From positions 1 through 64,000 of the forward strand of contig CAMDNE010000015.1 of NCBI GenBank assembly GCA_945902745.1: a stretch of 64,000 nt of DNA. Reading direction: 5' to 3'. Of this stretch, positions 47,994-57,275 are shown in pieces. The translations under genes were made by a program, and so were the position numbers. The first letter of the stretch is position 1, and every line of letters starts with the position of its first letter. The notes beneath the pieces were generated by a model. That model saw only the letters and a program-made list of their open reading frames with translations. It was not told the origin of the DNA and did not search any database. This DNA comes from Chitinophaga pinensis (GTDB lineage Bacteria; Bacteroidota; Bacteroidia; Flavobacteriales_D; Crocinitomicaceae).

Positions 47994-50807
47994 TTGAAAG
48001 AACCAGAAGACGGATATATAGAGGTATTTGGAGCGAGAGAACATAATTTAAAAAATATTGATCTTAAAATCCCACGCAATCAATTGGTTGTGTTTACTGG
48101 TTTAAGTGGAAGCGGAAAATCTTCATTGGCATTTGATACTATTTTTGCGGAAGGACAAAGACGCTATATTGAAACATTTTCTGCTTATGCCCGTCAATTC
48201 CTTGGTGGATTGGAACGTCCTGATGTTGACAAAATCAATGGTTTAAGCCCTGTAATTTCGATTGAACAAAAAACGGTTTCTCGTTCACCTCGTTCTACGG
48301 TTGGAACAATAACAGAAATATACGATTTCCTACGTTTACTCTATGCCAGAGCAAGTATTGCTTATTCGTATGAAACAGGGGAAGAAATGGTGAAGTATTC
48401 GGATGATCAAATAGTAGATTTGATTATTCAGCAATACGAAGGGAAGAAAGTAATTTTTCTAGCACCAAAAGTAAAAGGTCGAAAAGGACATTACCGCGAA
48501 TTGTTTGAGCAAATCCAAAAAATGGGTTTTACAAAAGTTCGAATCGATGGAGAGATCAAAGATATTGAAAAAGGAATGCGCTTGGATCGCTACAAGATTC
48601 ACGATATTGATTTGGTGATTGACCGATTGCACATCGCAGAAACAGACCGCAAACGAATTTATGATTCTGTTATTACTTCGATGAAACATGGTAACAAAGC
48701 CATGATGGTATTGGATTTTGAAACGGAAAAAGTACGCCATTTTAGTCGTTCGTTAATGTGTCCGACGTCTGGGATTTCTTATCCTGAGCCAGAACCTAGT
48801 TTGTTTTCATTCAATTCCCCTTATGGTGCTTGTCAAACATGCAGTGGCTTAGGTGAAGTTTCTGAAGCTGATATCACGAAGATTATTCCAAATCCAAAAT
48901 TATCCATTAAAAAAGGTGGTTTTGCTCCACTTGGAGAATACAAGAAAACGTGGATTTTTGATAAATTGGAAAGCTATTTAACGCAGGAAGATTTTTCTAT
49001 CACGACTCCGTTGGAAGAAATTCCTGAAGATATCATGAACGTCTTGCTTTATGGTAATGAAGACATTGAGCGTTCAAAAAAGAATAATACTGTTGTGTTT
49101 GAAGGAATCATCAATTTTGTTTCTCGGCATTCAGAAGAAAGTTCAGCTCCAATTCAACGCTGGGCGCAAAGTTTTATGAATAAAGTTATTTGTTCAACTT
49201 GCGAAGGAACACGGTTAAAAAAAGAGGCGCATTTCTTCAAATTTGATGACAAGCACATTGGTGATTTGGCTCAAATGGATTTGATAGAATTATCCAATTG
49301 GTTCCAACAATTAGAAGCTAAAATGACTTCGGATCAGTTATTTATTGGGAAGGAGATTTTAAAGGAAATTAAAACACGTTTGAATTTTGTGTTGGAAGTA
49401 GGATTGGAATATTTGACATTACACCGTTCTGCAAAAACATTATCAGGTGGTGAAGCGCAACGAATTCGATTAGCAACGCAAATAGGTTCTGAATTAATGA
49501 ACGTATTGTATGTTTTAGATGAACCTTCAATCGGATTGCATCAACGAGATAATACTCGTTTGATTAAATCGTTGAAACGTTTGAGAGATGCTGGAAATTC
49601 TGTTATTGTTGTTGAACATGATAAGGAAATGATAGAAGCAGCAGATTTTGTTGTTGATATTGGGCCAGGGGCTGGAATTCATGGAGGTCAAATTATCAAT
49701 GCCGCACCGATTTCTGAGTTGAATACGGTTGATTCCTTAACAACAAAGTATTTAACGGGTGAATTGAAAATTGAAATTCCGAAAAAACGCAGAAAAGGAA
49801 ACGGAAAACACCTTGTTTTAAAAGGAGCTACAGGACATAATTTGAAAAATGTCACGTTGAAAATCCCTTTAGGAACATTTTGTTGTGTTACAGGTGTTTC
49901 TGGAAGTGGAAAATCATCGTTGGTGAATCAAACACTTTATCCAATTTTGTTGGCTCATATTTATAATGGAGTAAAAAAGCCATTGTCATACAAAAGCATT
50001 GAAGGTTTAGAACTATTAGATAAAGTGATTGAAATTGATCAGAGTCCGATTGGTAGAACTCCAAGATCAAATCCCGCGACATATACCAAAGTATTTGACG
50101 AAATCAGGTCGTTGTTTGCAGGTTTGCCAGAAGCTCAAATTCGAGGTTATAAGGCAGGAAGATTTTCATTTAATGTTTCTGGTGGAAGATGTGAAACATG
50201 CAAAGGCGGTGGATTGAAAGTAATTGAAATGAGTTTCCTTCCAGATGTGTATGTGGAATGTGAAAGCTGCAACGGAAAACGATATAACCGTGAAACATTG
50301 GAAGTTCGGTTCAAAGGGAAATCTATTTCTGATGTATTGGATATGACAATTGAAGACGCAACCGTGTTTTTTGATCAAATCCCGAAAATACATAGACCTT
50401 TAGCAACCATGCTTTCCGTTGGTTTAGGTTATGTCAAATTGGGGCAACCTTCAACAACACTTTCCGGAGGAGAAGCACAGAGAATCAAACTTTCATCTGA
50501 ATTAGCGAAGAAAAGCACGGGTAGTACATTTTATATCTTGGATGAACCATCAACAGGATTGCATTTTGAAGATATACGCATGTTGTTGGAAGTTTTACAA
50601 CGTTTGGCTGATGAAGGTAATACGGTGTTGGTGATTGAACATAATCTTGATATCGTAAAAGTTGCAGATCATATTATTGATATTGGTCCTGAAGGAGGCA
50701 AAGGAGGTGGTTATGTGGTTTGTGAAGGAACACCTGAAGAAATTGTAAAGAAAGCAATAGAAAAATCCTATACCGCAAAGTATTTGGCTTTGGAGATGAA
50801 GCATTAA
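47994..50807 (+). CDS. uvrA: Excinuclease ABC subunit A
   Basis: The 937-residue protein has two ABC ATPase halves. Walker A motifs are GLSGSGKSSLAFDT (about residues 35-48) and GVSGSGKSSLVNQT (near 635-648), and Walker B motifs are LYVLDEPSIGLHQ and FYILDEPSTGLHFED. The zinc module near CETCKGGGLKVIEM and CESCNGKRYN is complete. The first zinc module has CPTSG where many UvrA have C-x2-C, as is usual in Bacteroidota. It finds bulky DNA lesions for UvrBC. The start is TTG one base after the transglycosylase stop, which gives the expected N-terminus. Confidence 0.96.
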   Translation: MKEPEDGYIEVFGAREHNLKNIDLKIPRNQLVVFTGLSGSGKSSLAFDTIFAEGQRRYIETFSAYARQFLGGLERPDVDKINGLSPVISIEQKTVSRSPRSTVGTITEIYDFLRLLYARASIAYSYETGEEMVKYSDDQIVDLIIQQYEGKKVIFLAPKVKGRKGHYRELFEQIQKMGFTKVRIDGEIKDIEKGMRLDRYKIHDIDLVIDRLHIAETDRKRIYDSVITSMKHGNKAMMVLDFETEKVRHFSRSLMCPTSGISYPEPEPSLFSFNSPYGACQTCSGLGEVSEADITKIIPNPKLSIKKGGFAPLGEYKKTWIFDKLESYLTQEDFSITTPLEEIPEDIMNVLLYGNEDIERSKKNNTVVFEGIINFVSRHSEESSAPIQRWAQSFMNKVICSTCEGTRLKKEAHFFKFDDKHIGDLAQMDLIELSNWFQQLEAKMTSDQLFIGKEILKEIKTRLNFVLEVGLEYLTLHRSAKTLSGGEAQRIRLATQIGSELMNVLYVLDEPSIGLHQRDNTRLIKSLKRLRDAGNSVIVVEHDKEMIEAADFVVDIGPGAGIHGGQIINAAPISELNTVDSLTTKYLTGELKIEIPKKRRKGNGKHLVLKGATGHNLKNVTLKIPLGTFCCVTGVSGSGKSSLVNQTLYPILLAHIYNGVKKPLSYKSIEGLELLDKVIEIDQSPIGRTPRSNPATYTKVFDEIRSLFAGLPEAQIRGYKAGRFSFNVSGGRCETCKGGGLKVIEMSFLPDVYVECESCNGKRYNRETLEVRFKGKSISDVLDMTIEDATVFFDQIPKIHRPLATMLSVGLGYVKLGQPSTTLSGGEAQRIKLSSELAKKSTGSTFYILDEPSTGLHFEDIRMLLEVLQRLADEGNTVLVIEHNLDIVKVADHIIDIGPEGGKGGGYVVCEGTPEEIVKKAIEKSYTAKYLALEMKH

Positions 50808-50892
50808 TTCTTATTTATTATAATGATTCTTTAATCTTGAGTGGATAGATTTTTGAATCAAACCAATTTTCTTATTTTTAAGATTCAATCTT

Positions 50893-51092
50893 TCTCATAC
50901 TTTTTTTCAAGCAGAAAAAAGTATGCACCTCGAAGAAGCAGCGAAGCTAAAAACTGCTTTTAAACTTTCATTAGGCATTTCCTTCGGAACGCGGTTTTAC
51001 TTTTCGCTTCGTGCGTATGCTCTATTGCTCCGTCGTAAACTCCTCCGCGAGCCGCAACTGCGCGAAGTAAAACGCTATTGCTTATGAAAGTT
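50893..51092 (+). repeat. 200-nt structured repeat, left copy
   Basis: This 200-nt segment is the reverse complement of 55894-56093 with only four mismatches and no gaps. It is far richer in GC than its surroundings. It starts with a hairpin (CATAC, T7, seven-nt loop, A6, GTATG at 50896-50925) that resembles a bidirectional terminator, and it contains a shorter internal inverted pair around AACTTTCAT/ATGAAAGTT. It lies between the convergent ends of uvrA and the radical SAM gene. The rest of the 451-bp intergenic region (50808-51258) shows nothing else. Confidence 0.85.
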
Positions 51093-51258
51093 AGGATTCT
51101 GGGGTAAAAGGTGTATTCTGCAAGAATTGCAACTAAATTGTAGTGGATCTATAGATAATCTTCGATTGTTTTTTGTCATGGTTATTGCAAAAAAGCAATA
51201 ACACACGCCAAAAAAAATTAGTTTGAATTAAATGAATTTTAGGACCACAACAATAGTC

Positions 51259-52485
51259 CTACTTGCTCAATTTCGCATTTTGTTCCATAAACTGTTTGTA
51301 TGTCACCTTCTTGTCATCCGTCCATTGATAATCTCCAAACATCTTTTCAATTAACCATTTTGGCAATCCTTTTTCCAAAGTACGCATCATAACGATATCA
51401 TATTTTCTGTGGAAATTGATCCAACATTGGTTACAACCATGTACGTGCTTGTTTTGAATTTCTTGAGATGCCAACGAATTGAAAATGTTATCTAGCGTAT
51501 TCGTATTGACGTTCCCTAATTTTAAATCAAGGTTTTGACAAATTGGAACACTGCCGTCAGGATGAATAACGATACTGTCCAAAATACTGCGACACTTTAA
51601 ATTCAATTTCTTTTTGCGCCATTCATCGTATAACAGCAAGAAATCATAGTTTTCTGTGGTATCAACAATGTTAGCCGGAATGCTATTCTTAAAATCGTTT
51701 GAATCCATGATTTTATTGTGATCATGCTTCGGAGTTTCAATTTCCTCTTTTTCAAGTTCATTCAATTTGTCATTCTTCTCTAAGATTTCATCTTTCACCT
51801 TGCGAATTGCTCCGTAAGTCAATACGTCTGTGTTTACGATAGATCCAATTTCTGTTTCATGCGCTTTTTCAACGGTGTCAAAAAATGAAATGTCGTTGTA
51901 AGTTCCAATACGAACGTCAATGTTATTTTTCTTGGCAATTTCAATAACGTGTTCCATGTCATCAAAACCATTGTAAGGTGATAAAGTAAACATCAATGAA
52001 ATTGGAACAAGGTCTTTACAGTTTTCAATTACTTTTAAAACATCGTTGTATCCATCCTTTCCACGCATGTATAAATACGTTTCCTTATTTCCGTCAAGTG
52101 AAATAAACAAACGTTTTGGTGGATATTTTTTAACTGCGTCAATTAAACTATCTGGCTTCAAACAATTGGAAAGCAAATCGAAGTTCGGGTGATTATTTGT
52201 AAACCATTCTAAGATTTCTAATGCTTGTGGGTGCAATAAAAATTCTCCTCCTTCTAATCCAACAGTTGTATGTTTTGAAACACATCTACTTTGCATTACT
52301 TCTACAATTTTTGCAATCGGAAGGTGCTTAACTGGACGTTTTGCCCATATTAAACAATGTTTACAACCTGAATCGCATAAATCTGTTCCGTAAAACATCA
52401 GCGTTGATAAAGTTTTATGACCCGGACGAACCGAGTTATTCACGTAACGAAGACCTCTTCTTAAATAATCTAATTTTCCGTACAT
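51259..52485 (-). CDS. Radical SAM protein with C-terminal Cys-rich (SPASM-like) region
   Basis: The 408-residue protein has the radical SAM cluster motif C37-x3-C41-x2-C44 (CDSGCKHC), the GGE-like motif in LEGGEFLLHP (about residues 78-87) and an RIGTYND segment. Its C-terminal third has further Cys residues (CRSILDS, VPICQN and HGCNQCW, about 302-366) as in SPASM or twitch domains that bind an extra iron-sulfur cluster. Substrate unknown. It forms a two-gene unit with the upstream oxidoreductase (3 bp between). Peptide or small-molecule modification are both possible. Confidence 0.85.
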   Translation of the reverse strand: MYGKLDYLRRGLRYVNNSVRPGHKTLSTLMFYGTDLCDSGCKHCLIWAKRPVKHLPIAKIVEVMQSRCVSKHTTVGLEGGEFLLHPQALEILEWFTNNHPNFDLLSNCLKPDSLIDAVKKYPPKRLFISLDGNKETYLYMRGKDGYNDVLKVIENCKDLVPISLMFTLSPYNGFDDMEHVIEIAKKNNIDVRIGTYNDISFFDTVEKAHETEIGSIVNTDVLTYGAIRKVKDEILEKNDKLNELEKEEIETPKHDHNKIMDSNDFKNSIPANIVDTTENYDFLLLYDEWRKKKLNLKCRSILDSIVIHPDGSVPICQNLDLKLGNVNTNTLDNIFNSLASQEIQNKHVHGCNQCWINFHRKYDIVMMRTLEKGLPKWLIEKMFGDYQWTDDKKVTYKQFMEQNAKLSK

Positions 52486-52488
52486 CGT

Positions 52489-53517
52489 TTATTTTTTTAA
52501 ATTTTCAATTAGTTTGTAAGTCAATTGCATAGCAGATAATGGTGTAATGTTGTTCCCTTTTCCTGTTTCACACAGTTGTATAAATGTTTTAATTTCATCG
52601 TAATACCCAGAAGACACCAATTGGTTGCTTTCCATTACTGGATTAAAACTGTTTCTATTGTATAAAATTTCAATCGTTTCAGTGGTTTTCTTAATTTTTT
52701 CAATCGGAATAGAAAACAGTGTTTTTGATTTTTTCTCAAATGTGAGCGAATCCATATTTGTCATTTTGTAAACACCTGATGAGGTATTTAACGACAGATT
52801 TTCTTCTGCATTTTTCCAATTATAATGCGTCGATAATTCAATACTTCCAACAAAACCAGTGTGTTCCAAATGCAGAAAGTAAGTGTCATCATTCGACTTT
52901 TGAAGAGAAGCAATTTTATATTCTCCAAAAAGATGCCCAATCAAATCCAGTGGGTGAATGAATAAATCCAATACTTTATCTCCTTCTGGGTATGGACCTG
53001 TCGCATAGCGATAAGAATAAGAAAGGATGGAATTACCAGCATTCTTTTTCAATTCTTTCACAATGGGCGCATACCTTTTTTGCATTCCTACTAAACAGAT
53101 ACCATTGCTTTTTTGTTCAGCTTCAATTAGTTCATTAAGTTCAGTAGAAGTAGAACAAGGTGGTTTTTCAATGAACACATTTTTGTTGTGTTTCAGTGCT
53201 TTTAAAACCAAATCAAAATGACTTTTTGGATCAGCGCAAATGAGAATTCCTTTTATTTCAGGATCATTTAACACACTTTCATAATCTGTTGTACCAATAA
53301 CTCCAGGGAAATTATTATCAATCAATGAAGCATTTTTTGAACTGCTCACAACGATGTATTTCAACGGAACTCTCAAGTGATTTAAAACAGGATACAAATT
53401 ATTAATGCTGTGATTTCCAATACCAACAAATGCATATTTGCCTTGATACTTCAAATTCAAATAGCTTTGTTTGCGAAAATTCTTTAACTTTTTAATAATA
53501 CTGTTCATAAATCCCAT
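52489..53517 (-). CDS. Gfo/Idh/MocA-family oxidoreductase
   Basis: The 342-residue protein has an N-terminal Rossmann domain with the dinucleotide loop GIGNHSINN (about residues 31-39) and the conserved EKPPCST (about 116-122), followed by the family's C-terminal beta-sheet domain. Such enzymes oxidise or reduce sugars and related alcohols with NAD(P). The first 25 residues are basic and amphipathic, longer than usual. It is co-directional with the SPASM radical SAM gene and divergent from the B12-radical SAM gene, with 135 bp between. The substrate is unknown. Confidence 0.87.
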   Translation of the reverse strand: MGFMNSIIKKLKNFRKQSYLNLKYQGKYAFVGIGNHSINNLYPVLNHLRVPLKYIVVSSSKNASLIDNNFPGVIGTTDYESVLNDPEIKGILICADPKSHFDLVLKALKHNKNVFIEKPPCSTSTELNELIEAEQKSNGICLVGMQKRYAPIVKELKKNAGNSILSYSYRYATGPYPEGDKVLDLFIHPLDLIGHLFGEYKIASLQKSNDDTYFLHLEHTGFVGSIELSTHYNWKNAEENLSLNTSSGVYKMTNMDSLTFEKKSKTLFSIPIEKIKKTTETIEILYNRNSFNPVMESNQLVSSGYYDEIKTFIQLCETGKGNNITPLSAMQLTYKLIENLKK

Positions 53518-53535
53518 CTGATATTATCGGAAGTT

Positions 53536-53543
53536 CAAATTTA
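53536..53543 (-). promoter_or_regulatory. Candidate -7 element of oxidoreductase/rSAM unit
   Basis: The minus strand reads TAAATTTG, a match to TAnnTTTG, ending 18 nt before the start codon at 53517. A -33 element is not clear. Confidence 0.3.
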
Positions 53544-53627
53544 AGCAATTCTCTGAACTTGCGTGCTTGAAATTAACCTAAAGAACAAAGACTTAGTTCT
53601 GTAGTGCTTTTAAGTTGGAAATAAAGA

Positions 53628-53635
53628 TAATTTTG
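53628..53635 (+). promoter_or_regulatory. Candidate -7 element of the B12-radical SAM gene
   Basis: TAATTTTG matches TAnnTTTG and ends 17 nt before the ATG at 53653. The element lies in the divergent 135-bp region shared with the oxidoreductase promoter. Confidence 0.35.
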
Positions 53636-53652
53636 TAACACTTATTTGAGCC

Positions 53653-55860
53653 ATGAATAATTCGAAAAATCAACTTTTATTAATAACTCCTCCGTTCACA
53701 CAACTGAACACGCCTTACCCTGCAACCGCTTATTTGAAAGGGTTTTTGAATACCAAAAACAGTCAATCTGTTCAAGCAGATTTAGGAATTGAAGTTATTT
53801 TGAAAGTGTTTTCCAAGGAAGGATTGATTAACTTGTTTTCAGAAATAAGTAAAAATACCAAAGAACTTTCAGAAAATGCTGAACGGATATTTGCTTTAAA
53901 AGAAGAATATATTTCCACGATTGACGCTGTAATTTTGTTCTTACAAGGTAAAAATCCAACGTTAGCTCACCTAATTTGCCAAGAAAGTTTTTTACCTGAA
54001 GCAGCACGATTTGACCAACTAGAAGAATTGGATTGGGCATTTGGAATCATGGGGAATCAAGATAAAGCAAAGCATTTAGCAACACTTTATATTGAGGATA
54101 TTTCTGATATTATTGTTGAATGCGTTGACGAACATTTTGGCTTCAGTCGTTATGCAGAACGACTTGGAATGTCTGCTAATAGTTTTGATGAAATCTATGC
54201 GTCACTTCAAAAGGAATTGACTTACATTGATAAAATATTTCTGGAAATTTTAGCAAATAGGATGGAGATCGTTCAACCGCAACTGGTCGCTTTTTCTGTC
54301 CCATTTCCTGGTAATTTATATGCGTCTTTTCGAGCGGCACAGTTTATTAAAAAACACTATCCAGCTGTTAAAATCGCAATGGGAGGAGGATTTCCAAATA
54401 CAGAATTGAGGTCATTAAGTGATGTCCGTGTATTTGAGTTTTTTGATTTCATTACGCTTGATGACGGTGAACGTCCGATTGAAAATTTGATTCAACATCT
54501 AGAGGGAAAAAGATCGATCACTGATTTAAAAAGAACTTTTACTTTATTGGATGGAAAAGTGGCTTATATCAACAATTCTAAAGATCCAGATTACAAACAA
54601 GCGGAAGTTGGAACGCCAGATTACAGTGATTTGAAATTGGACAGTTACATTTCTGTTATTGAAATTGTGAATCCAATGCACCGTATGTGGAGTGATGGGC
54701 GATGGAATAAACTGACAATGGCGCATGGATGTTATTGGGGGAAATGTACATTTTGTGATATTTCTTTGGATTACATCAAGCTTTATGAACCTGTCACCGC
54801 AAGTTTATTGTGTGATAGAATAGAGGAGTTAATTGCTCAAACAGGTCAAAATGGGTTTCATTTTGTTGATGAAGCTGCTCCGCCTGCCTTGATGCGTGCT
54901 TTGGCATTGGAGATTTTAAGAAGAAAACTGACAGTGAGTTGGTGGACAAACATTCGTTTTGAAAAAAGTTTCAGTAAAGATTTGTGTTTATTGCTCAAAG
55001 CTTCTGGTTGTATTGCTGTTTCTGGTGGATTAGAAGTGGCATCTGATCGTTTGTTGGAATTAATAGATAAAGGAGTTTCTGTTGCACAGGTTGCACAAGT
55101 GACAAGGAATTATACAGAAGCTGGAATCATGGTTCATGCCTATTTGATGTATGGTTATCCAACCCAAACGATTCAAGAAACAGTTGATTCTCTTGAAATG
55201 GTGCGACAATTATTTGAAATCGGAATTTTACAATCAGGTTTTTGGCATCAATTTGCTTTGACAGTGCACAGTCCAGTTGGTTTAAATCCATTGAAATATG
55301 GTGTTCTTAAAGAAACAGAAGAAATTGGAACTTTCGCTAATAACGATATTCAATTCAAAGATAAAACGGGTATAGATCACAACTTGTTCAGTTATGGGTT
55401 AAAGAAATCATTGTACAATTTTATGCACGGAATTGGGTTTGATTTACAGTTGCAGGAATGGTTTGATTTTAAAATACCGAGAACAAAAATCCTGCACAAT
55501 TTCATTGAAACAGCTTTAAACGAGGAAGATGCCATTTTCATTAAACCATCTGCTAAAATTGTTTGGATTGGTAATTCTCCGTCAATTCGGTTTTTTACCA
55601 AGACAAAAAAAGGACGTGAATTTGAAATGGCTGAAGTTAAAATTCATACCAAAAAAGAAGCTATTGTTATTGCTGTTTCTAAAAGTGAAGGAGAATGGTT
55701 GATGTCAATTTTTGAATTGATTGCTGTTTCAAATAGGAAAGTCTTGACGTTTCAAGAAGTTCGTGAGCATTATGAAAAATCGAATACCGAAGATTTCGAA
55801 CCGTTCTTTTATGGGAAATCAATGTATACTCTCAGAGATTCAGGATTGTTGATTTTGTGA
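53653..55860 (+). CDS. B12-binding-type radical SAM protein
   Basis: The 735-residue protein has a unique N-terminal helical part (about residues 1-210), a Rossmann-like B12-domain region (about 215-300, KIAMGGGFPNTELRSL), a radical SAM domain (about 340-560) and a long C-terminal part with no recognised domain. The cluster motif is C360-x4-C365-x2-C368, one residue longer than the canonical C-x3-C-x2-C. The cobalamin ligand motif DxHxxG is absent, so B12 may bind without a His ligand or not at all. A methyltransferase or ring-forming role is possible. It is divergent from the oxidoreductase gene. Confidence 0.8.
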   Translation: MNNSKNQLLLITPPFTQLNTPYPATAYLKGFLNTKNSQSVQADLGIEVILKVFSKEGLINLFSEISKNTKELSENAERIFALKEEYISTIDAVILFLQGKNPTLAHLICQESFLPEAARFDQLEELDWAFGIMGNQDKAKHLATLYIEDISDIIVECVDEHFGFSRYAERLGMSANSFDEIYASLQKELTYIDKIFLEILANRMEIVQPQLVAFSVPFPGNLYASFRAAQFIKKHYPAVKIAMGGGFPNTELRSLSDVRVFEFFDFITLDDGERPIENLIQHLEGKRSITDLKRTFTLLDGKVAYINNSKDPDYKQAEVGTPDYSDLKLDSYISVIEIVNPMHRMWSDGRWNKLTMAHGCYWGKCTFCDISLDYIKLYEPVTASLLCDRIEELIAQTGQNGFHFVDEAAPPALMRALALEILRRKLTVSWWTNIRFEKSFSKDLCLLLKASGCIAVSGGLEVASDRLLELIDKGVSVAQVAQVTRNYTEAGIMVHAYLMYGYPTQTIQETVDSLEMVRQLFEIGILQSGFWHQFALTVHSPVGLNPLKYGVLKETEEIGTFANNDIQFKDKTGIDHNLFSYGLKKSLYNFMHGIGFDLQLQEWFDFKIPRTKILHNFIETALNEEDAIFIKPSAKIVWIGNSPSIRFFTKTKKGREFEMAEVKIHTKKEAIVIAVSKSEGEWLMSIFELIAVSNRKVLTFQEVREHYEKSNTEDFEPFFYGKSMYTLRDSGLLIL

Positions 55861-55893
55861 ATCCAATAAAATAATCTTATTCCCAAGAACTCA

Positions 55894-56093
55894 AACTTTC
55901 ATCAGCATTAGCGTTTTACTTCGCGCAGTTGCGGCTCGCGGAGGAGTTTACGACGTAGCATTAGAGCATACGCACGAAGCGAAAAGTAAAACCGCGTTCC
56001 GAAGGAAATGCCTAATGAAAGTTTAAAAGCAGTTTTTAGCTTCGCTGCTTCTTCGAGGTGCATACTTTTTTCTGCTTGAAAAAAAGTATGAGA
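55894..56093 (-). repeat. 200-nt structured repeat, right copy (inverted)
   Basis: This is the inverted counterpart of 50893-51092, 196 of 200 positions identical. Its terminator-like hairpin lies at 56061-56090. It again lies between convergent gene ends, those of the B12-radical SAM gene and the DEAD-box helicase gene. A 67-codon open frame runs through both copies on the same repeat strand, but it has no ribosome-site or family support and is treated as incidental. Confidence 0.85.
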
Positions 56094-56138
56094 GAAAATA
56101 ATTTGGTTCAATTAATCTCAATTTTTTAAATAATGAAA

Positions 56139-57275
56139 CTATTTTAGAGGTAGCGTCTCACTATCAATCATTGTCACCCATTTCCCCATTTTTTTCTGAA
56201 TGATTTTAAAATGGTGTAATTCTTCCGGACTTACAAATGAAATCGCTTCTCCTGGATTTTCTGCTCGACCAGTTCTACCAATTCTATGAATGTAATCTTT
56301 TGGGGAGCGAGGAAGCTCGTAATTGATTACGCAGGGCAAGAAAGTGATATCAATTCCACGAGAAATCAAATCTGTAGCCACCAAAACCCGCAATTTTCCT
56401 TCTTTAAAATTCTCCAACGCTTTTGTTCTTGCTTGCTGACTTTTCTTACTGTGAATTGCCATGGCATTGATTCCATTTTTCTGCAATTTATCCGTTATTT
56501 TGTCACAATTGAATGTCGATGATGCAAAAACCAATACTTGTCTGAGATTGTTGGTTTTGATTAAATACCTTAAAAGTGGTCCTTTTTTCTCTTCTGAAAC
56601 AAAGTATCCAAGTTGTGAAATCAAATCAATGTTGTTTTCCTCTTCTTCTATTTTAATCACTAAAGGATCATTCAATAAAATGCGATTAATCGTATCAACA
56701 TCGTCACTTAAAGTAGCGGAGAAAAGTAGATTTTGACGTTTTTTTGGAAGCAAAGAAAAGATGCGATTCATTTCATCCTTGAATCCAAGGTTCAGCATTT
56801 TATCTGCTTCGTCCAAAACAAGCGTATCGATTGCAGAAAGAGAAACGGCATTTGAATCAATTAATTCTAATAAACGTCCAGGCGTTGCAACTAATATGTT
56901 GACACCCATCATCGCTTTCATTTGGGGATTGATTGCAACTCCACCATAAACCGCCATTGTTTTCAAAGGGGTTGTCAATGCAGAATTGAACAATTGAAAA
57001 ACTTCACGCACTTGAACAGCCAATTCTCTCGTTGGAACAACAACCAAAACGTTGATATGTCTGTTTTTTGAAAGTGTATTACCTTCCAGATTCATTAATA
57101 TTGGCAACACATAACTAGCCGTTTTACCAGAACCAGTTTTTGCTATTCCAAGAACATCCTTTTTCTTTAAGATCGCTGGGATTGCTTCTTTTTGAATTGG
57201 AGTTGGTTCTGTGAAATCTTGACGACCTAAAGCCTCAATTAATGATGAAGAGATTCCTAAAGATGAAAAAGGCAT
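56139..57275 (-). CDS. DEAD-box RNA helicase (RhlE-like)
   Basis: The 378-residue protein has all DEAD-box motifs: Q motif (FTEPTPIQKEAIP), I (AKTGSGKT, about residues 43-50), Ia (PTRELAVQV), II (DEAD), III (SAT), and VI (HRIGRTGRA). It has only a short tail after motif VI, so no added RNA-binding domain. It unwinds RNA, probably in ribosome assembly or RNA decay at low temperature. It ends 45 bp beyond the right 200-nt repeat. Confidence 0.95.
   Translation of the reverse strand: MPFSSLGISSSLIEALGRQDFTEPTPIQKEAIPAILKKKDVLGIAKTGSGKTASYVLPILMNLEGNTLSKNRHINVLVVVPTRELAVQVREVFQLFNSALTTPLKTMAVYGGVAINPQMKAMMGVNILVATPGRLLELIDSNAVSLSAIDTLVLDEADKMLNLGFKDEMNRIFSLLPKKRQNLLFSATLSDDVDTINRILLNDPLVIKIEEEENNIDLISQLGYFVSEEKKGPLLRYLIKTNNLRQVLVFASSTFNCDKITDKLQKNGINAMAIHSKKSQQARTKALENFKEGKLRVLVATDLISRGIDITFLPCVINYELPRSPKDYIHRIGRTGRAENPGEAISFVSPEELHHFKIIQKKMGKWVTMIDSETLPLK

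Follow-up and report, generated by a model that had tools for sequence, protein, structure and literature searches.

Two inverted 200-nt repeats around a radical SAM gene cluster: candidate copies of a palindromic insertion element in Crocinitomicaceae

Two nearly identical, inverted repeats of 200 nucleotides (nt) flank a cluster of three genes in the first 64,000 nt of contig CAMDNE010000015.1 (assembly GCA_945902745.1, Crocinitomicaceae), the stretch of DNA analyzed here and called the window. The locus raises the question of whether such a pair marks the ends of a mobile or invertible gene cassette, serves the genes that converge on it, or follows a course of its own. We consider the repeats to be two copies of one non-coding, non-autonomous palindromic insertion element, for which an enzyme would be supplied in trans, and give this interpretation, based on sequence comparison, a probability of roughly 0.55. 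The genome to which the window belongs (3.46 Mb in 54 contigs) is referred to as G000, and its relatives by similar handles. The two repeats are located as follows:

50893..51092, plus strand: left copy of the 200-nt element, 196/200 identical to the right copy; covariance-model match of 131.4 bits
55894..56093, minus strand: right copy, inverted, found by BLAST; covariance-model match of 134.7 bits

Within the window, BLAST aligns the two repeats without gaps, with mismatches at repeat positions 133, 138, 186, and 191, and the homology of the pair extends more weakly to 218 nt (95% identity). When queried against the window, the left repeat matched itself and the right copy, with no third copy. 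The GC content of the repeats is 43%, compared to 33.6% for the window, so the gapless, GC-rich inverted pair in AT-rich surroundings that a first-pass annotation had described is confirmed. The same holds for its placement between convergent gene ends, as the left copy lies in the gap between uvrA and a radical SAM/SPASM gene and the right copy in the gap between a 735-amino-acid (aa) radical SAM gene and an rhlE-like helicase gene. A search of the whole 3.46-Mb genome (E < 0.001) returned the window pair and no other close copy, and the additional matches of a looser search are fragments of at most 19 bases. The nearest full-length relative of the window copies, in G021, is 84% identical to them, in comparison to 98% within the pair.

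Across related genomes, the repeat belongs to a family with a conserved structure, as had been proposed. A covariance model built on an alignment of 18 full-length bodies (the palindromic part of the unit, described below) detected 44 copies under the stricter filters of large searches. They are spread over 18 of the 240 family genomes, G000 among them, and 4 of 24 genera, with 1 to 5 copies per genome. At the DNA level, matches were found in 9 of 26 genomes of the genus, G000 included, and in at least 33 of the 240 family genomes, with three candidates per genome scored. As a contig start truncates two of the 44 copies, the context and loop counts use the other 42. In the fetched sequence, the model gave 52 matches in 43 sources, one being the opposite strand of another (L208); this 52-row set also includes a few rows at E values of 0.0006 to 0.009, and a 41-row set avoids both. 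An exact 27-nt body pattern had one match in a public genome collection, in a metagenome-assembled genome of the Flavobacteriales.

The loci that carry the unit in related genomes are mostly unrelated, and occasionally copies are clustered, with three direct copies in one locus of G008 (L224) and three in one contig of G012 (L079). In G000, the genome-wide count that the first-pass annotation had suggested comes to two close copies, or five when those with another type of body are included. The latter, designated type C (C1:144596, C2:190707, and C2:199543; L256, L255, and L258), combine the loop AAAGCA and a different body with the same hairpin and loop-complement logic; the copy at C2:199543 is common to G000 and G025, where the orthologous site is occupied. 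The borders of the unit emerge from the copies themselves. Pairwise comparison of the 42 copies yielded 321 pairs with a match, and after excluding 188 under 170 nt, 69 of the 133 remaining alignments delimit one unit that starts 20 to 70 nt before the body and ends within 5 nt of the body end.

A typical unit spans approximately 180 to 205 nt. It opens with a hairpin (hairpin A) whose left arm is rich in T and whose right arm is rich in A; a short spacer or, alternatively, a ~28-nt linker leads to a segment complementary to the loop of hairpin A, and the palindromic body follows. In the window, these parts are the following:

50896..50925, plus strand: hairpin A of the left copy, A/T-rich, with AAGCAG in its loop at 50909-50914
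56061..56090, minus strand: hairpin A of the right copy, with loop AAGCAG at 56072-56077
50926..50953, plus strand: linker CACCTCGAAGAAGCAGCGAAGCTAAAAA of the left copy; elements whose loops and bodies differ have closely similar linkers
56033..56060, minus strand: linker of the right copy, the same as the left by sequence comparison
50954..50959, plus strand: CTGCTT of the left copy, complement of the hairpin A loop, from loop/segment comparison
56027..56032, minus strand: CTGCTT of the right copy, from the same comparison
50963..51092, plus strand: body of the left copy, an imperfect palindrome closed by AACTTTCAT and ATGAAAGTT, from folding and covariation
55894..56023, minus strand: palindromic body of the right copy, from alignment and the covariance model

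The body of the left copy, taken with four extra 5' bases, has a predicted folding energy of -38.8 kcal/mol as RNA and -21.8 kcal/mol with DNA parameters. Hairpin A was detected in 36 of the 42 copies (finder range of 75 nt), and 32 of these 36 have at least four complementary bases between its loop and the segment before the body. Counted over distinct combinations, this applies to 24 of 28, compared to 16.8 by permutation, and none of 2,000 permutations reached 24, although permutations, like the shuffles used below, ignore relatedness. A generic pseudoknot search in the window did not rise above its Markov control (20 versus 4 to 23), and the loop-complement claim therefore rests on the comparison between copies. 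Loop and segment change together, as in AAGCAG/CTGCTT, AAAGCA/TGCTTT, CTTGAC/GTCAAG, AGCGCC/GGCGCT, and AGGCG/CGCCT. Elements of other genera combine similar linkers with different loops and bodies, and the linker in G021 misses 22 nt.

Covariation in the body indicates the form in which the palindrome is conserved. In the 41-row set, 96.5% of 1,112 alignment cells form standard pairs, and two-sided changes affect 21 of 28 pairs (192 cells), against at most 37 cells when the partners are slid; the 52-row set gives 23 pairs and 253 cells, with at most 47 for slid partners. An RNA helix is expected to pass through G-U states during such changes. With one exceptional pair excluded, G-T occurs in 4 of 1,071 cells and A-C, which is G-T on the other strand, in 15 of 1,071 (6 and 19 of 1,285, respectively, in the 52-row set). 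The best reading of this near absence in both strand senses would be conservation as folded DNA rather than RNA. The exceptional pair (columns 42 and 403 of alignment A2) is a G facing a T in 37 of the 41 copies and in 46 of the 52 rows. It sits midway along a stem that is otherwise Watson-Crick and is a candidate recognition mismatch. In addition, the alignment of 18 bodies contains conserved unpaired positions. A passage in PMC3733652 uses G-T pairing as an argument for the transcription of repetitive extragenic palindromic (REP) sequences.

By analogy with REP/REPIN sequences and IS200-type DNA, an enzyme acting in trans might recognize the folded single strand and copy or move it. The window copies would then derive from one recent copying event that left one copy behind uvrA and one behind rhlE. 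Because both lie in convergent gaps, which would tolerate inserts, such a pair would end up inverted around an older cluster of three genes. The genes in question are these:

47994..50807, plus strand: uvrA, left neighbor, with its 3' end toward the left copy (PRK00349, 1357.7 bits, over the cut-off)
51259..52485, minus strand: radical SAM/SPASM gene, inside (Pfam)
52489..53517, minus strand: Gfo/Idh/MocA oxidoreductase gene, inside (Pfam GFO_IDH_MocA)
53653..55860, plus strand: 735-aa radical SAM gene, inside (Pfam; resembles B12-type families below their NCBIfam cut-offs)
56139..57275, minus strand: rhlE-like DEAD-box helicase gene, right neighbor, with its 3' end toward the right copy (RhlE models below cut-off)
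50855..51200, plus strand: longer block around the left copy, 76% identical over 348 columns to the right-hand junction of G021

Pfam bears out the initial naming of the inner genes as radical SAM/SPASM, GFO_IDH_MocA, and radical SAM, and the B12-binding part of the third name is backed by NCBIfam matches below cut-off. Within the genus, 8 of the 26 genomes, G000 included, have this 735-aa gene. Since it adjoins rhlE without a repeat in three congeners (G005, G007, and G013, with gaps of 165 to 290 nt), the three-gene cluster looks like an older resident, not cargo, that the repeats neither brought nor visibly flip. In G021, the three genes lie between the same neighbors, accompanied by a single copy, which occupies the right-hand junction and is oriented the other way. 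The left junction of G021 and G025 (the uvrA-SPASM gap; L060:2930-3770, matching the L084 gap) holds no repeat and, by eye, a pair resembling nucleotidyltransferase/HEPN. G002 has no copy by model or hairpin pattern; its left-hand junction, on another contig, holds other sequence, and its right-hand junction has approximately 7 bases between two stop codons (by eye).

Comparison with G021 also bears on how the elements may turn over. Between approximately 51409 and 55309, G000 and G021 show ~25 differences in 3.9 kb (~0.6%), compared to roughly 8% outside (3 to 14% per 150-nt bin, and 23% in the last uvrA bin), which evidently is the trace of a recent homologous exchange of DNA within the cluster. 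The 346-nt block around the left copy (50855-51200) lies left of the three genes in G000 and right of them in G021 (L060:8410-8732), in the same orientation. Behind rhlE, the two genomes agree in their flank as far as hairpin A, give or take one or two bases, after which the bodies differ (by eye), with the window-repeat body in G000 and a type C body in G021. The matching block and the shared flank with a different body point to elements that were replaced or copied in place.

These observations also bear on other explanations of the pair. As the first-pass annotation had considered, the inverted repeats could bound a composite mobile segment or let the three genes be switched by inversion, and 200-nt inverted arms with 98% identity around three metabolic genes speak for such a structure. 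We regard this as highly improbable, because relatives have the genes beside the same neighbors with one copy or none, the exchange tract shared with G021 ends inside genes (at ~51.4 and ~55.3 kb) and not at the repeats, and none of the three inside genes is a recombinase. Flipping would be physically possible, by ordinary homologous recombination between the 200-bp arms, but every readable junction (left in G021, G025, and G002; right in G021 and G002) has the gene orientation of the window, and as the arms end at gene ends, a flip would presumably swap no promoter. A more plausible, though still unlikely, explanation is a bidirectional transcription-end or mRNA-end element, with hairpins that insulate convergent genes and selection that keeps one behind each gene end. 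The window copies fit this, and 14 of 29 copies with resolved neighbors are convergent, compared to 5 of the 47 gaps that the window contains (binomial, 4e-7; 11 of 24, 1e-5, after merging tandem and orthologous copies by hand), based on gene calls from codon scores trained on the window, in which some resolved neighbors are more than 1 kb away. Convergent gaps are thus over-represented, not exclusive: the 42 copies comprise 14 convergent, 9 divergent, 6 tandem, and 13 unresolved contexts, contrary to the expectation that copies always separate convergent genes. By eye, the copies in G007 and G013 follow a terminator-like sequence, while the rhlE and uvrA ends of several congeners are without the element. 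The terminator-like hairpin noted in the first-pass annotation did not hold up: hairpin A has no T-tract on either strand, and a terminator scan of 50700-56300 found no site inside either repeat and one at the 3' end of the SPASM gene, compared to an average of 3.4 sites in shuffles. A termination role is therefore possible but not supported by the sequence, and the body seems far more elaborate than termination would need.

Alternatively, the unit could act as RNA, either a small RNA or a domain of a 3' untranslated region, with a pseudoknot between the hairpin A loop and the segment before the body. Strong body covariation and the complementary loop agree with this, as do stable predicted RNA folds of the unit (-56.1 and -54.4 kcal/mol), but the near absence of G-T pairs in both strand senses does not, and we judge this explanation unlikely. 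Nothing exceeded any Rfam gathering threshold in the window region and 10 further loci. The best match, to the Bacteroides small RNA BTnc231 (28.4 bits, E of 0.08), overlaps the copy in G013 at its hairpin end and is far below the gathering threshold of 80.4; the window copies have no match, and the two weak matches in the window lie elsewhere, inside a gene. Furthermore, no shared promoter-like sequence was seen by eye next to the copies, and the wholly complementary 6-nt loops in related elements would leave little room for a pseudoknot. It is also conceivable, but in our view improbable, that the block was passively duplicated once by template switching or gene conversion and that the family persists without a dedicated enzyme. 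The contrast between 98% identity within the pair and 84% at best to other full-length copies is compatible with such an event, and palindrome self-correction during replication can also give Watson-Crick double changes without a recognizing protein. Self-correction predicts low G-T, but it does not predict the conserved unpaired positions, and passive duplication does not account for a unit that recurs across four genera at many unrelated loci.

Several results weigh against the interpretation as an insertion element, beginning with the alternative that self-correction offers. The junctions of G000, G021, G025, and G002 and the loci of the other copies in G000 yielded neither a clean empty site nor a target duplication, so movement is inferred from the distribution of copies. 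The copy number is low for a mobile repeat, though draft assemblies break at repeats, and searches of 50,697 phage records and 72,556 plasmid records gave no match to the element. Six of the 42 copies have no detectable hairpin A, 62 of the 133 long alignments extend beyond the unit at one end or both (some of them between tandem, orthologous, or same-genome copies), and the number of pair types is no higher than in shuffles (39 versus 38.1 for 41 copies). In addition, none of 21 loci with a Y1 transposase (PF01797), from 11 of the 14 genomes searched, carries the element (best E of 0.002, in copy-flanking sequence).

A link to REP transposases was rejected on this absence from all 21 PF01797 loci. 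A hairpin filter on the same loci gave three matches in two loci, none resembling hairpin A by eye, and G011 and G170, 92% and 87% complete, have several copies each and no Y1 match. A common neighboring partner was likewise discarded, as the largest protein cluster near the copies covers 4 loci in 3 genomes. Separately, two of the four Y1 loci in G000 (L155:560-1500 and L164:1100-1500) are bordered by arrays of different palindromes, GTCCCTACGGGAC and TGACTTCAGAGAAGTCA. The largest protein cluster near the copies consists of small open reading frames that by eye resemble helix-turn-helix regulators, in three genomes (L204:3339-3692, L205:3770-4120, L215:4549-4899, and L219:4520-4897).

A loose hairpin pattern matched 18 viral-contig stretches with different bodies. 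In the viral-contig records L240, L252, L247, L249, and L254, the hairpin signature TTACTTTTT..AAAAAGTAACCAAAAA accompanies unrelated bodies. Judging from the impression that the sequences give, the hairpin logic may be wider than the family, with some of the viral-contig records perhaps from outside the Bacteroidota. In G003 (C40:23458-25820), seven hairpin-pattern matches, representing five hairpins, fall within 2.4 kb, with loops CTTGAT and AAGC.

Read in this way, the apparent mobile cassette turns into a case of independent repeat turnover, which calls for caution in taking flanking inverted repeats as transposon ends. The family also offers an unusually clean test of function as DNA or RNA, given its strong covariation and almost complete lack of G-T. 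We suggest, tentatively and with the odds against it, that it represents a class of mobile elements of folded DNA in Bacteroidota that has yet to be described, in which the loop is the complement of the pre-body segment, bodies are swapped behind a shared linker, and a putative non-Y1 enzyme reads the fold as a lock reads its key. If an enzyme recognizes the fold, long palindromic repeats would gain a new partner, and this in a phylum whose REP-like systems are described as atypical. A literature search, covering titles and abstract starts, long lists in part, and mostly journals without subscription, retrieved no description of the element.

For comparison with known systems, we considered the features of miniature inverted-repeat transposable elements (MITEs), palindromic elements derived from the insertion sequences (IS) IS200/IS605, and integron attC sites, the last with RYYYAAC and GTTRRRY core boxes. 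Similar to MITEs and IS200/IS605-derived palindromic elements, the unit is short, non-coding, recurring, and patchy across related genomes. In contrast to MITEs, the whole unit has no terminal inverted repeats, its palindrome being limited to the body, and neither a target duplication nor a parent IS was found. The body resembles attC in its length and in its imperfect palindrome, which may likewise function as a folded single strand, and direct tandem copies occasionally occur, but the copies are scattered. An attC identity was rejected, since the closing arms vary (AAATTTTC/GAAAATTT in G024 and CAAAAGTTTTA in G063), the two core boxes do not match, and the AAC/GTT core is absent in some copies (G024 and G063). 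With bidirectional intrinsic terminators, the element shares the position between convergent genes in the window, but it differs in its lack of a T-tract, its occurrence in divergent gaps, and its long structured body.

The closest parallels are with REP/REPIN sequences and their transposase TnpA-REP (REP-associated tyrosine transposase, RAYT). As in those systems, the element is dispersed, intergenic, palindromic, and non-coding, often lies at gene ends, and appears to be conserved as folded strands. It differs from the 20- to 40-bp REP in its unit, which is about five to ten times longer, in its low copy number (two close copies, five with the other body type), and in the absence of any copy from the Y1 loci. 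According to passages in PMC3733652 and PMC6006769, REP hairpins carry a GTAG/GTGG (or CGTC) tag at their foot; by eye, the window and other copies have no GT[AG]G or CGTC tag in that place. The phylum fits. One table in PMC12306157 includes two Flavobacterium genomes with predicted REPs, and a section of PMC6006769 describes RAYT subclass 2.6 of Bacteroidetes as flanked by "atypical secondary structures." By analogy, REP/RAYT systems, and subclass 2.6 in particular, remain the nearest known kind to the element described here.

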